Origin: Gemmatimonadota bacterium
GTDB taxonomy: Bacteria; JAAXHH01
Reading direction: 5' to 3'
NCBI GenBank assembly: GCA_026702745.1
Contig: JAPPBT010000050.1
Location: 1-64,000 of the forward strand
Length of the DNA: 64,000 nt
Position 1 is the first letter of the stretch. Each line of letters begins with the position of its first letter. The notes under the pieces were generated by a model, which worked only from the letters and a program-made list of their open reading frames with translations, had not been told where the DNA came from and made no database searches. Shown here piece after piece: positions 49,409 to 54,891 of the stretch. The position numbers and the translations under genes are program-made.

Positions 49409-50146
49409 TTGCATACCACCGAACGCATTACGCAGTCGGACTTCGTCTATCGCCGGAGGAAGGACACGGAAACGAAGGTCCTGTCCTTTTCCGAAGCGTA
49501 TCCCGATTACCATCCTCAGGATCGCGTGGGACTGGTCTCACCCCGGTTGGAAGACGGCGTGTTCGGGTTGGCCGGCGCCGTCCTCGGCCTGGCGACCGGG
49601 TTCTACGACTGCCTCCGCTCGAAAGGGGGCGAGTTCTTTAATTATCCCCAGCATCACGCGTTTATCGGGGGACGGAATGGGCGCGTGCACACGCGAAGCG
49701 GTGACCAGGACCTTACCATCCCGGAGTTGGGAAGTGCCTGGGGATGGCTCGACGTCTGGCCGGAGACCAACTGGCATCTCTGTCCGGCGACGCCGGCCGG
49801 CATGCTCGAGGCGGCCTTCCGCCTCCAGGTCAACCGTCTTTTCTGGCCGTCTACATTCATGCCCGGAACCGTGGATAAACCGCTTTCGCATTATGCGTAC
49901 AGACTGCTGCGCGGAAGGCTTAAATCCGTCTGGTATTACGACTGCGAGGCTGGGAACCTGGAAGTCCGGGCATCGGGGGCCGCCGCGGACGTCATCCGGG
50001 AAAGCCTGGAACGTCTGCCCGGTCGAACCCAGGAGCCGGATCACGAACTAAACGCAACCTCCCGGCCGGGGTTTGATAGCCGGTTCAATCCCGTGGAACC
50101 TGAAGCGTTTCTTGAAGATATGTCGGTCTGCTTTACTGATGGATGA
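49409..50146 (+). CDS. Uncharacterised protein, 245 residues
   Basis: I do not recognise this family. The protein has no signal peptide and no membrane helix. A hydrophobic stretch FGLAGAVLGLATGFYDCL is followed by HHAFIGGRNGRVH. An aromatic-rich core (WGWLDVWPETNWHLCP, FWPSTFMPGT) and an alpha-helical segment (ADVIRESLERL) come next. The start is a TTG at 49409 with a weak GGTGA site, so the N-terminus is uncertain. Codon use resembles its neighbours and the frame is intact, supporting a real gene. It lies 52 bases upstream of the PhyH-HEAT gene on the same strand and could be cotranscribed. Confidence 0.65.
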   Translation: MHTTERITQSDFVYRRRKDTETKVLSFSEAYPDYHPQDRVGLVSPRLEDGVFGLAGAVLGLATGFYDCLRSKGGEFFNYPQHHAFIGGRNGRVHTRSGDQDLTIPELGSAWGWLDVWPETNWHLCPATPAGMLEAAFRLQVNRLFWPSTFMPGTVDKPLSHYAYRLLRGRLKSVWYYDCEAGNLEVRASGAAADVIRESLERLPGRTQEPDHELNATSRPGFDSRFNPVEPEAFLEDMSVCFTDG

Positions 50147-50198
50147 ACTGAAAGAATCCATGCCATAATGGAGCCATGCCAAAAAGGAGCAGTGAATC

Positions 50199-51599
50199 AT
50201 GGTGGACAGATCCTACCTTTTCGACGATGACGCCATGCGCGACTTCATCGTGAACGGCTATCACGTAATCAATGTGGACAAGCCGGTCGCGTTGCACGAT
50301 GACATCTACGAGAAAACGAAGGCAATCATCGACGAAGACGGGAATCCGGGGAACAACCTGCTGCCTCGCGTGCCCGAGATCCAGCAGGTCTACGACGATC
50401 CCAAGGTGCAGGGCGCGCTGACGAGCCTGCTCGGACCGGACTACGTGATGCACGCCCACCGCCACCCGCACGTGAACCCGCCGAACAGCCGGGGAGGCGC
50501 CTGGCACAAGGACAGCTACTGGGGTTACACCAAGGTGCGGGACCACCATCCGCGCTGGATCATGGCCATGTACTATCCCCAGGACACCCCGGTGGAAATC
50601 GGTCCGACGGGGGTGATCCCGGGAAGCCACTATATCGAGTCCCGCGAGGAGACCGTCGGCGGGAATGGGTCCGTTCCCGACGGGTTCCCCGCGAGCGGCA
50701 AGGCAGGCACCGTTACCATCATTCACTTCGACCTCTGGCACCGGGCGTATCCGAACCAGACGGACAAGGTCCGGTACATGATGAAGTTCCAGTTTACGCG
50801 GATGTCGGAGCCCGATCGCCCCGGGTGGGACCGGCAGCGCGAAGATATCGACCTCGGCGATCTGTCGGAAGATCCCCGGAGCGCCATGTGGCGGAACATG
50901 TGGCACTGGCTCGCCGGAAACGGGTCGGCCGGGACCCGGCAGGAAGGCGGGGAGGACGTCGAGTCGCTCGCCGGCGACCTGACCCACGAACTCGAGCAGA
51001 AGCGCCTGCACGCGGCCTATACCCTGGCGGAGTGCGGGGAGGCTGCCTTGCCCCACCTGATGGAAGCGCTCCAGCATGAACGGGACGAGGTCCGACGGGA
51101 AGCGTGCTATGGGCTCGGCGCGCTGGGTGCCGCGGCCGTCGAACCGCTGGTCTCCCTGCTCGGGCATGGGAACGAGCGGATCCGGGGCTATGCGGTCTAC
51201 GCCCTTGGAGACATCCGGCACGGCAACCCGTCGGTAGCGGCGCGCCTGGCGGGTCTGTCTGACGACCCGTCACCCTTTGTCCGCCAGAACCTGGCCGATG
51301 CCCTCGGCCAGATGAAGCTGGCCGCGGATTCGGCCGTTCCCGCGCTGATTGGCATGATGAAGGACGAGGATGAGCAGGTGCGCTCCAGGAGCGCCTACGC
51401 GCTGGCCCGGTTCGGGGACGATGCCCAGGTGGCCATTCCACAACTCGCGGACGCGTGTTACGATGAAAACAGGTACGTGCAGGGCCAGGCCGCCATCGCC
51501 CTCGAACAGATCGGTACGCCGGAAGCCCTGCGCACGCTGCTGCACTGGTTGCAGGCCTCGCGGTGGTGTCCCCTGACGACGGCGAAGAGTACGTACTAG
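50199..51599 (+). CDS. PhyH-type Fe(II)/2OG dioxygenase fused to HEAT repeats
   Basis: Two-domain protein of 466 residues. Residues 1-215 are a phytanoyl-CoA dioxygenase-like domain: H103-x-D105 (AWHKDSYWGY), H181 (FDLWHRAYPN) and R192 (KVRYMMKF) form the iron and 2-oxoglutarate sites, with IGPTGVIPGSHY between. Residues 265-455 are five or six HEAT/PBS-lyase-type repeats with A-A-x-A-L-x-x-[IL]-G periodicity (AACYGLGALG-like, YAVYALGDIR, ALGQMKLAADSAVPAL, ALARFGDDAQVAIPQL, IALEQIGTPEAL). HEAT repeats normally bind proteins, so the fusion suggests a protein-linked or scaffolded substrate. AAAAAGGAG is well placed before the ATG. Confidence 0.88.
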   Translation: MVDRSYLFDDDAMRDFIVNGYHVINVDKPVALHDDIYEKTKAIIDEDGNPGNNLLPRVPEIQQVYDDPKVQGALTSLLGPDYVMHAHRHPHVNPPNSRGGAWHKDSYWGYTKVRDHHPRWIMAMYYPQDTPVEIGPTGVIPGSHYIESREETVGGNGSVPDGFPASGKAGTVTIIHFDLWHRAYPNQTDKVRYMMKFQFTRMSEPDRPGWDRQREDIDLGDLSEDPRSAMWRNMWHWLAGNGSAGTRQEGGEDVESLAGDLTHELEQKRLHAAYTLAECGEAALPHLMEALQHERDEVRREACYGLGALGAAAVEPLVSLLGHGNERIRGYAVYALGDIRHGNPSVAARLAGLSDDPSPFVRQNLADALGQMKLAADSAVPALIGMMKDEDEQVRSRSAYALARFGDDAQVAIPQLADACYDENRYVQGQAAIALEQIGTPEALRTLLHWLQASRWCPLTTAKSTY

Positions 51600-51616: not shown

Positions 51617-53557
51617 CTACCAGTCGTGTATCATATGACCCTGTCCGGGATAGAACAGGGCGTCCGCGATGAAGGACAGGACGATGCCCAGGGTGTAGCC
51701 TAGCAGCACGCCCAGGAAGAACCGCTGGCCCGTGCGGTAGGCGCCGGTCCCGACCTTCAGCAGGATGAACTTGACGAGCCAGGCGAGGAAAACGGACAGG
51801 ATCGAGTCCCGTATATTGCTGGCGAAGCAGATGGCGAATCCTACCGGGGCGAGGGGCCACCAGACCAGCCAGTGCCTCAATTTCAGCAGGACCAGGAAGA
51901 TCACCGCGCCCCCCGCCATGAACCAGGGCTCGTTCTGTCCCAGCGACAGCGGGTTCTTCATCCAGGTCACGATCTCGTCGTAGTAGTGCGTGTTGAGATT
52001 GGTGAACGCCCCTCCGCCGAAGTTGTACGCACCGATAGTGTATCCCGCCTGAATCGTATAGGAAACAGCCGTTACCATGCTGACCAGGAAGGTGGCGGAG
52101 AGCACAAGCAGCAGCCCCTTCTTCCGCGGCCAGAAACCGTCGGTTAGGCGGTCGGCCAGCACGACCGATCCCATCCCCAGTCCCCGCCAGTTCCGCGCGT
52201 AGGCGCTCGCCAGGCCCAATGACGTCAGGCTGGGTCCCGACACGTTCCCCGATCCCAGGGACAGCACCGTGATCTGGTGCGCGTTCACGGGCAGGTCGAG
52301 AAACACCACCCCTGTTTCGGCGATGACTTTCGTGGTACCGAAGTATAGCACGAACAAGAAAGCCAGGAAAACCGCCATTACCGGCAGGGACAGTCCGGAC
52401 TGGTACAGCCAGGCGCAGATGAAGGCGGATCCCAGCAGCAACCCGATGACGGCCGTCCGGTAGGATACGAGTTCTTTCGAATCATCCAGTCCGGCGTTTC
52501 GTCCGATCGCTTTCCTGAAAACCCCCGCCAGGTGGCTGCGTGCGGACCACAGGGCGTAGCCCACGTAGACGAGGAACCCGCCGAAGAACTGGGCGTTGAC
52601 GCCGCCGTCGCCGCCCGGTCCTCCGCCTTCGGTGTTAAGGCCGATGTAGTTCAGCGCGCCGATCTCGAAAAGCCCCAGCATGAAGAAGACCCAGATGCTC
52701 AGGAGGATGTCGACGTTGATGAAGTATCCGAAGCTGAGCATGTAGGGGCTGATGCGCAGGGGGATGGCAGGAAACATGGGGCTCAACTGGAGCGGCGTCT
52801 CGAAGAAGGTGCCCACGGGCAATTGCGGAACGACCAGGGCGAAGGAGAAGATGTTCCAGATGGCGATGGCCAGCGCGAGGCCGAATCCGATCTGGAAGAG
52901 GCGGTCGTAGACCAGCTTCGGCCAGCGGCCGACCGTCTGGTCCCCGGCGATGAGCTCCAGGGGGACCTGCACGAGGGGAAAGGTGAGCCGCTCGTAATCC
53001 ACCCACTGTTTCCGGAATATGGTCGCCACGCAGGCGCCGACCACAAAAATGGCTACGAAAAAACTCATCCACCAGGCGACGGGTATGATCCAGGGCGACC
53101 ACGGAATGGTTCCGCCCGGGGGCAGTCCCTCGTAGAACCACCCCATGGCGTTGTTCTGGTTGCTCGCCACGAGCCATCCCGGCAGATAGGGGTGGAACAG
53201 TTCCGCCCACTGGTTCTCGGGCTGGGCGAAATAAAAGGGCGTCGAAATGATGGTCAGGAAATACGAAACGAAGGCCTTGCCCGGTATGAGGCTCGAAATG
53301 AGCAGGATGCAGAAGATCAGCGCCAGCTCGCGGCCGGTGAAGGCGGCCTGCTGGGCAATACCCCGGACGACGGGATTGTATACGAAGACGACGAGCAGGA
53401 ACAGGGCCAGGGCGGAGATGGGCAGGTGGGCCACCGACATGCGGGACGAGTGCAGGATATAAGTCCCGTAGGTCACCCAGATGTTGAGGACGATGGCCAG
53501 GACCAGCCCCGTGGCGAGGGACCGGGACGTGATTACGGAGTTTGGCGTTCCTGCCAC
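51617..53557 (-). CDS. DUF6785-type multi-spanning membrane protein (OPT-like)
   Basis: Integral membrane protein of about 646 residues with roughly fourteen hydrophobic segments. It resembles the uncharacterised DUF6785/DUF6784 proteins common in Poribacteria and Planctomycetes, which show distant similarity to oligopeptide transporter (OPT) permeases. Visible landmarks are NQNNAMGWFYEGLPPGGTIPWSPW, WVDYERLTFPLVQVPLELI and FGTTKVIAETGVVFLDLP. The GTG at 53557, with GGAGG at 53562-53566, is a better start than an in-frame GTG at 53614. Either overlaps the sulfatase gene end, so the two are coupled. A transport role is inferred. Confidence 0.75.
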   Translation of the reverse strand: MAGTPNSVITSRSLATGLVLAIVLNIWVTYGTYILHSSRMSVAHLPISALALFLLVVFVYNPVVRGIAQQAAFTGRELALIFCILLISSLIPGKAFVSYFLTIISTPFYFAQPENQWAELFHPYLPGWLVASNQNNAMGWFYEGLPPGGTIPWSPWIIPVAWWMSFFVAIFVVGACVATIFRKQWVDYERLTFPLVQVPLELIAGDQTVGRWPKLVYDRLFQIGFGLALAIAIWNIFSFALVVPQLPVGTFFETPLQLSPMFPAIPLRISPYMLSFGYFINVDILLSIWVFFMLGLFEIGALNYIGLNTEGGGPGGDGGVNAQFFGGFLVYVGYALWSARSHLAGVFRKAIGRNAGLDDSKELVSYRTAVIGLLLGSAFICAWLYQSGLSLPVMAVFLAFLFVLYFGTTKVIAETGVVFLDLPVNAHQITVLSLGSGNVSGPSLTSLGLASAYARNWRGLGMGSVVLADRLTDGFWPRKKGLLLVLSATFLVSMVTAVSYTIQAGYTIGAYNFGGGAFTNLNTHYYDEIVTWMKNPLSLGQNEPWFMAGGAVIFLVLLKLRHWLVWWPLAPVGFAICFASNIRDSILSVFLAWLVKFILLKVGTGAYRTGQRFFLGVLLGYTLGIVLSFIADALFYPGQGHMIHDW

Positions 53558-54891
53558 ACGACCTCCAGGGGATCGGGGATGGCGTAGGGCTTGACCCGCT
53601 GTTCGTGAAGCCACTCCGACAGACAGTGATCCATTCTGTGCAGGATCTCCGGCTCATCGCCGGCCAGGTTCCGCGTCTGGTACGGGTCGCTTACCATATC
53701 GTACAGGGCCACCGGGGCGAACTGGTATCCGAAGTCGTCGTAGGTCCTGATCATGAGGTGATCGGGTGTCCGCACCGCCCGCTGCAGCGTGTACAGGCCG
53801 TGACCCCAGACCAGGTAGTCGTGCAGGCGGCACTGTCCGGTGGCGAGTCCTTCCGCGAAGGACCGCCCGTCAAAGTATTCCGGTACTTCGCCGCCGACCA
53901 GGTCGATGAGCGTGGCGCTCAGGTCCACGTTATACAGCAGATCGTCGCAGGTGGATCCGGGCGGCGTAACCCCCGGCCATTTCAGGATCAGCGGGATGCG
54001 GTGTATGCATTCGTCGGCGCATACGTGGTCGCCGTAGATGCCGTGCTCCCCCATGGCCTCGCCGTGATCCGCCGAGATGATGACCGCCGTGTCGTCCAGG
54101 TCGCCCAGGTCACCCAGGGCGTCCAGCACTTGCTGAACGTGATGGTCGGTGTAGCGGATCTCCGCGTCGTACCCGGTCACCATGTGATTCAGGTCGTCCG
54201 TGTTCCGGATGGCGTCCGGCATGTTCGGCGTGGGACTCGGCCGATCCTCGGGAAAGAGGTGGGACGCGGTAAACCAGCCGTCGACATCCTGGTGGCCGCG
54301 TATCGCTTCCTCATCGGGCCAGTCCACCGCCGACGGATGTGCCGCCATGCGGTCGAACCCGTCGCGAGGTGCTTCGTAGACCCGGTGCGGGTCCCAGTAG
54401 TTGATGTACAGCAGGAAATCGTCCCGCTCGCCATTCGCGGCGATCCAGCGGAGCACGGCCTCGTTGACTTCGTCCGCCGTCTCCGATCCCGTCTTCAGGT
54501 TGGGCGAATGGAACTCCGACCAGCCCAGCCCGAACCAGGTCGCGCAGTGCCGCGTGGGGAAGTTGGAGAAACAGACGGTGTCATATCCGTGCTGGCGCAG
54601 TCTTCTCTGCACCAGCTGGTTCCGCTCGTCGGGTCCGCCGTACTGCTGCTCGATTATTTGAAGCTTCGATGCGGGTCCGCCGTGGGTCACCACGCCGTTG
54701 TTGATCCCGAAACGGCCGGTGATCCATCCGTGCCTCGACGGCATGCAGGGAGAGTCCGCGCAGTAGTACCGGTCGAAACGCATCCCCTGCGCGGCGATCT
54801 CGTCGATGGCGGGCGAGGTCGGCCGGCCATAGCCGTAGCAACCCAGGTGGTCGGGTCTCAGGCTGTCGATGTCGAAGAAGACGATGCGCAA
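53533..54891 (-). CDS. Type I sulfatase (formylglycine-dependent), no signal peptide
   Basis: Arylsulfatase-superfamily hydrolase, 452 residues. Metal ligands open the protein in FFDIDSLRPDHLGCYGY. The formylglycine site is C49-M-P-S-R53 followed by H-G-W-I-T-G-R, the Cys form that needs FGE or anSME activation. ISADHGEAMGEHG supplies the second half of the metal site. It starts straight at the first beta strand, without signal peptide or membrane helix, so it should act in the cytoplasm, unlike most sulfatases for extracellular polysaccharides. The start codon is TTG at 54891 with a weak ribosome site. The gene is translationally coupled to the DUF6785 gene. Confidence 0.9.
   Translation of the reverse strand: MRIVFFDIDSLRPDHLGCYGYGRPTSPAIDEIAAQGMRFDRYYCADSPCMPSRHGWITGRFGINNGVVTHGGPASKLQIIEQQYGGPDERNQLVQRRLRQHGYDTVCFSNFPTRHCATWFGLGWSEFHSPNLKTGSETADEVNEAVLRWIAANGERDDFLLYINYWDPHRVYEAPRDGFDRMAAHPSAVDWPDEEAIRGHQDVDGWFTASHLFPEDRPSPTPNMPDAIRNTDDLNHMVTGYDAEIRYTDHHVQQVLDALGDLGDLDDTAVIISADHGEAMGEHGIYGDHVCADECIHRIPLILKWPGVTPPGSTCDDLLYNVDLSATLIDLVGGEVPEYFDGRSFAEGLATGQCRLHDYLVWGHGLYTLQRAVRTPDHLMIRTYDDFGYQFAPVALYDMVSDPYQTRNLAGDEPEILHRMDHCLSEWLHEQRVKPYAIPDPLEVVWQERQTP

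Follow-up and report, generated by a model that had tools for sequence, protein, structure and literature searches.

A PhyH-type oxygenase fused to HEAT repeats in a Gemmatimonadota bacterium, with a conserved C-terminal tail that may dock on its own catalytic domain

The closest described relatives of the protein presented here fall into two groups, one for each of its halves. Among solved members of the PhyH family (PF05721), the nearest by sequence profile are SptF (7eyr), EctD (3emr) and ThoJ (6zyk), and the nearest by fold are FtmOx1, TlxI, OkaE, AsqJ and PrhA, which have the fold and the HxD...H...R site in common with it. The family includes 2'-O-methyl nucleoside demethylases according to one paper (PMC12709175), and another describes PhyH-type oxygenases as exceptionally numerous in Poribacteria, most of them without a reliable function (PMC3909097). 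The profile matched 26 solved PhyH sequences with lengths of 266-326 residues; in addition to such a domain, the present protein has six HEAT repeats and a conserved tail. These repeats resemble the alphaRep-type HEAT solenoids (PF13646; 7p0h, 6gwc) in fold and in the sequence of the repeats (Z 20.3-23.5 with 30-34% identity in the first 15 rows), but unlike alphaReps they are natural, follow an oxygenase in the same chain, end in a tail and conserve groove residues particular to this family. Weak HEAT-only sequence matches were also obtained to deoxyhypusine hydroxylase and to CpcE, CpcF and NblB. Neither identity was retained. Deoxyhypusine hydroxylase has four conserved His-Glu motifs in its HEAT repeats, of which the present protein has only H263-E264 and H293-E294, both unconserved (in each, the histidine occurs in 5 of 50 homologues), and the phycobilin lyase matches lie far below the NCBIfam cut-offs (NblB 40.3 bits against 300, CpcE 32.3 against 330, CpcF 31.9 against 220).

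The window, which is the whole stretch of 64,000 nucleotides analysed here, carries the fusion gene on its forward strand as 466 codons without a stop, with the sequence AGGAG nine bases upstream of the ATG. Near relatives with 89-95% identity over the full fusion length indicate that the gene is real. Pfam recognised PhyH with an E value of 4.3e-16 (60.3 bits, cut-off 22; best stretch 57-192) and HEAT_2 PF13646 with one of 3.7e-41 (139.7 bits, cut-off 27.7). AlphaFold2 gave a pLDDT of 89.6 and a pTM of 0.90 from 32 sequences, and 92.1 and 0.92 from an alignment of 76 sequences restricted by choice to members with a WC-type tail. The VIA fold lists for the model held only 2OG oxygenases and HEAT/ARM families, an absence of other folds that is not proof, and a viral structure library returned mainly ordinary PhyH and other 2OG oxygenases. 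The architecture proposed in the sequence-only reading, PhyH and HEAT in one chain of 466 residues, is thus borne out by Pfam, AlphaFold2 and VIA. The features of the gene and its protein are as follows.

50185..50189, + strand: AGGAG, likely ribosome-binding site of the fusion gene (read directly)
50199..51599, + strand: PhyH-HEAT fusion gene, 466 aa (ORF, Pfam matches, full-length homologues)
50199..50918, + strand: PhyH-type Fe(II)/2OG oxygenase domain, residues 1-240 (Pfam 57-192; fold match 5-204)
50334..50375, + strand: residues 46-59, the end of helix 30-47 with the GNPGNN loop, where the tail is proposed to dock (co-variation, conservation)
50505..50513, + strand: H103-K104-D105, HxD iron ligands (conservation among 91 homologues)
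50739..50741, + strand: H181, presumed third iron ligand (91/91 homologues)
50772..50774, + strand: R192, expected 2-oxoglutarate carboxylate binder (91/91 homologues)
50919..50951, + strand: linker, residues 241-251 (AlphaFold2; block pLDDT 63 for 241-250)
50952..51518, + strand: six HEAT repeats, residues 252-440 (Pfam, AlphaFold2, VIA)
51519..51560, + strand: capping helix, residues about 441-454 (AlphaFold2)
51561..51596, + strand: conserved C-terminal tail RWCPLTTAKSTY, residues 455-466 (homologue alignment)

By family, residues and predicted fold, the protein is a PhyH-type Fe(II)/2-oxoglutarate oxygenase. Homologues were thinned to three sets: 91 non-redundant complete sequences for residue conservation, 68 clusters for charges and 145 tips for the dependence tree. 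H103, D105, H181 and R192, the site that had been read as intact from the sequence, are each kept in 91 of 91 homologues, and K104 in 78 (Q in 12, M in 1). We take the roles of H181 and R192, as iron ligand and 2-oxoglutarate carboxylate binder, from the PhyH family pattern. All 32 aligned fusion members matched PF05721 at E <= 0.01, and VIA superposed 192 residues of the PhyH part on FtmOx1 (7etl_A) with a Z of 19.2 and an rmsd of 2.7. In the alignment with SptF, the stretch matching construct residues 61-68 (numbering inferred), at which entry u122697 and the N65T entry u122698 differ, directly precedes residues 46-59; because they adjoin it, these residues are plausibly a lid region of the oxygenase.

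Six helix pairs make up the HEAT part of the AlphaFold2 model (254-278, 280-309, 311-339, 344-372, 376-403 and 406-438), followed by a capping helix at 441-453, so that of the five to six repeats estimated earlier the upper figure was right. The predicted fold supports them as HEAT units, with a VIA match of Z 23.5 over 198 residues (rmsd 3.5) to the alphaRep 7p0h_A. Positions variable among the designed alphaReps, which were picked out by eye in the alignment and presumably line the concave face of the solenoid, show higher conservation in this family than the remaining non-core HEAT positions (mean 1.81 versus 1.42 bits, permutation p 0.009). A groove conserved in this way would fit gripping of the enzyme's own chain, of a second copy or of a partner.

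Matches to the fusion at E <= 1e-30 were found in all 16 searched genomes of the window's phylum, the best match being near full-length in each. In a wide sample with at most four candidates scored per genome, 19 of 384 genomes matched at 1e-60, and outside the window's phylum 3 of 368 did so, all from one phylum. In that second phylum, probably Poribacteria to judge from its richness in PhyH proteins, the fusion was matched in 78 of 84 genomes, with at least 1-12 matches per genome at 1e-60; these counts are lower bounds, with up to 19 candidates scored per genome. The possibility that the architecture is both widespread and already characterised, raised in the sequence-only reading, held in its first part, for at least two phyla; for the second part no paper on a PhyH-HEAT fusion was found in a literature search that covered subscription journals poorly, so that this absence is not proof. 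Full or near-full-length relatives with 40-95% identity occur at 31 named loci, whose record labels conflict with one another (Latescibacterota, Gemmatimonadetes/Gemmatimonadota, Handelsmanbacteria, Zixiibacteriota, Gemmatimonas, uncultured bacterium). The window's own genome has a second full-length fusion, at 41% identity, as well as PhyH proteins without HEAT repeats. Adjacent fusion paralogues on the same strand were seen at G471:C1:3930985-3933876, G470:C1:5087061-5089908 and G464:C52:161180-164013, and such neighbours in the second phylum are possibly heteromeric pairs.

A midpoint-rooted tree of the PhyH domain with 64 rows places the HEAT-bearing sequences in a single supported group (98/93). 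The group nearest to them, joined at 99/95 under the midpoint root, consists of HEAT-less PhyH proteins (own-genome L003, L120, L121, L122 and L110:8133), which differ from the fusions in having no HEAT repeats, no tail, and A, E or G at position 53. Two changes of the HEAT trait were counted, as L129, a HEAT-less sequence cut by a contig end, sits inside the fusions; most simply, the fusion would have arisen once, with no reversal seen on the tree as sampled. L129 was kept in the tree and in the count of tail-less members with N53 given below, HEAT-bearing ORFs that run off their contig (e.g. L054 and L130) were excluded from the conservation and tail counts, and L134 and L111 appear frame-shifted. 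Because the similarity searches for relatives started from the window's protein or from two paralogues, divergent forms are under-sampled.

The sequence-only reading had not mentioned the 12-residue tail at the C-terminus. In 194 complete fusions (near-copies counted) the tail is of WC type in 175 and WD type in 6, and it is absent from 13, so some fusion lineages manage without it; the tail-less fusions occur in several clades. The stretch from the tryptophan to the last residue is 11 residues long in 179 of the 181 tail-bearing fusions (13 and 8 in the other two), and 168 of the 181 end in F or Y, 8 in H, 4 in S and 1 in P. Among 50 complete fusions thinned at 85% identity, position 456 is W in all 42 filled rows, position 457 carries C (36 rows) or D (6 rows), and the chain ends in F or Y in 43 of 44 filled rows. 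R425, in the last repeat, accompanies the WC tail: it is present in 171 of 175 WC-tailed, none of 6 WD-tailed and 1 of 13 tail-less fusions. The pattern RWCPxT, a search that fixes R, W, C, P and T and so leaves looser signals outside it, has four matches in the window's genome, of which only those in the two fusions are protein tails, the others lying in stop-to-stop frames of 25 and 54 aa. Blocks of the tail rose in pLDDT from 62 and 50 with 32 sequences to 71 and 71, a moderate value, with the 76 tail-bearing sequences. The asparagine at position 53 seemed at first near-exclusive to tailed forms; as a tail contact it was weakened by tail-less members that keep it (4 of 11, or 3 of 10 once L134 was dropped for length). 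The WD-tailed sequences L117, L101 (second copy), L116, L118 and L133 are a divergent subfamily with Q104 in place of K104 and G or D at 425, and they may act on a different substrate.

A regularised inverse-covariance analysis of 195 rows (effectively 76 sequences) connected the tail with the oxygenase. The two strongest oxygenase-HEAT couplings, ranked among all pairs at least 6 positions apart, were T130-S464 (rank 9) and E46-K463 (rank 14), and further couplings to the tail were R425-T460 (67), H89-T465 (87), A123-Y466 (90) and R425-C457 (116); couplings within the oxygenase (F177-Q198, H85-M122 and M122-T200) join plausible strand neighbours. In an earlier run of 130 rows, I61-G305 was first among oxygenase-HEAT pairs, T130-S464 second and E46-K463 30th (rank 92 overall). 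In 68 clusters at 80% identity, residue 463 is basic (K, R or H) in 7 of 9 clusters with an acidic residue 46 and in 6 of the 59 others. Counting H as basic, the 46/463 charges are basic/acidic in 32 clusters, acidic/basic in 7, alike in 5 and with a neutral partner in 24; the 32 basic/acidic clusters barely exceed the approximately 27 expected from single-site frequencies, and the signal is therefore confined to few clades. A 145-tip tree, inferred with positions 46 and 463 removed, favoured dependent over independent evolution of the pair (LRT 20.0, 4 d.f., p 0.0005), a p value that is optimistic because the pair was picked from a scan (0.0005 x 144 is about 0.07), and the acidic-46/basic-463 state needs four changes. 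Among the 144 positions with enough acidic variation, 46 ranked first for dependence on 463, followed by 35 in the same helix. Additionally, 18 of 31 VIA alignments to oxygenases extend to model residue 449-459, near the oxygenases' own C-terminus, while 13 stop short of the tail base, 8 of these at 204. These ranges, which give first and last aligned residues only and alone are not proof, suggest that the end of the modelled arm returns to the oxygenase where the C-terminal part of solved oxygenases lies.

We consider it about an even chance (roughly 0.5) that the HEAT arm is a built-in clasp that docks the C-terminal tail on the oxygenase, rather than mainly a recruiter of partners. The six repeats would carry the length-fixed tail back to the oxygenase, where, from the co-variation, residue 463 would pair with residue 46, where helix 30-47 ends immediately ahead of the GNPGNN loop, with E46-K463 as a proposed salt bridge. 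Residues 464-466 would lie near residues 130, 89 and 123, and R425 of the last repeat would hold the tail base. Docking, in cis or in a swapped dimer, may close or shape the active-site entrance. The broader form of this idea is more tentative, and we would give it somewhat less than even odds: that the arm is the enzyme's own gate, with the tail folding on the lid loop and the opening and closing of the arm controlling access to the iron site, in an ancient family that occurs in the majority of genomes in at least two phyla, its multiple copies keeping a common clasp while diversifying towards different substrates. The substrate is probably, on weak grounds, a small molecule, because some copies adjoin genes that by eye resemble those of sugar or acid catabolism. 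The family, ancient and conserved in its fused form across many genomes, offers a handle on the PhyH proteins of Poribacteria through a specific proposed contact that can be mutated. If the clasp is real, gating of a 2OG oxygenase would be directly testable with a charge-reversal mutant pair.

The function originally suggested for the HEAT groove was to recruit a carrier protein or a protein substrate to the oxygenase, and a candidate partner lies directly upstream of the fusion.

49409..50146, + strand: upstream gene of unknown family, 245 aa (ORF; conserved beside the fusion)

Its product has the invariant pattern AWG-x-LDVWP-x-TNW, and searches found neither a Pfam hit over the threshold nor any NCBIfam hit, nor a relative in the PDB, where the best E of 0.41 was at chance level. 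Within the window's phylum the gene turned up in 14 of the 15 genomes searched and adjoins this fusion copy in 13 of those 14; in G013 it is on a different contig from the fusions found, and G015 shows none. This association and the conserved groove agree with recruitment. However, the gene had no match at loci L033 or L036-L055, some of which have short flanks, so the partnership proposed for it, kept within the window's phylum, is unlikely for the fusion family, and no other gene was a constant partner across the loci compared. Groove conservation, which leaves room for such binding, is equally expected from a grip on the enzyme's own oxygenase or tail, and the pTM of 0.92 and the couplings, in which the tail co-varies with the oxygenase, favour such a grip; we regard recruitment as unlikely.

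An oligomer, in which arm and tail serve to dock the tail on the oxygenase of a neighbour in a homo- or heteromer, perhaps between tandem paralogues, would account equally well for the co-variation, which does not distinguish docking in cis from docking in trans. Several second-phylum genomes do hold two diverged fusions side by side on one strand, and the VIA fold matches include the 2OG oxygenase heterodimer TlxIJ, but the window's fusion is a single copy at its locus and confidence in the tail rose in a monomer prediction, and we judge this reading unlikely, a shade more so than recruitment. Targeting and encapsulation signals can be short conserved C-terminal peptides of fixed length, a description that suits this tail, and the HEAT part could then be a scaffold and the tail be without a catalytic role. 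Genomic evidence for microcompartments in Poribacteria is reported in PMC3909097. Against such a signal, RWCPxT tails are restricted to the two fusions in the window's genome and co-variation of a signal with the oxygenase domain would be unexpected; we regard this reading as very improbable.

Elsewhere, the fusion's neighbours were by eye oxidoreductase-like or enolase-type enzymes or other PhyH genes. Genes named by eye as Gfo/Idh-like made up 4 of 78 adjacent genes versus 3 of 216 genes three or more away, with neighbour ORFs called mechanically and L055 and L105 being the same place, a weak hint of a catabolic context. Downstream of the fusion in the window, two genes lie on the opposite strand.

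51617-53614, - strand: DUF6785/DUF6784 gene, convergent with the fusion (Pfam)
53533-54891, - strand: sulfatase with a C-M-P-S-R motif (translation)

G001, G014 and G019 have FGE-sulfatase matches adjacent or close to the fusion, and a related cluster is present in 6 of 16 loci. A link between the fusion and this family was rejected, as the window's genome keeps the tail with no match to PF03781 and the tail has no CxPxR. The same genome, which is 96% complete, thus has the sulfatase motif and no match to FGE-sulfatase PF03781, which another maturation route or an assembly gap would explain. The DUF6785/DUF6784 gene as called starts about 80 bases inside the end of the sulfatase gene, and its true start may be further in.
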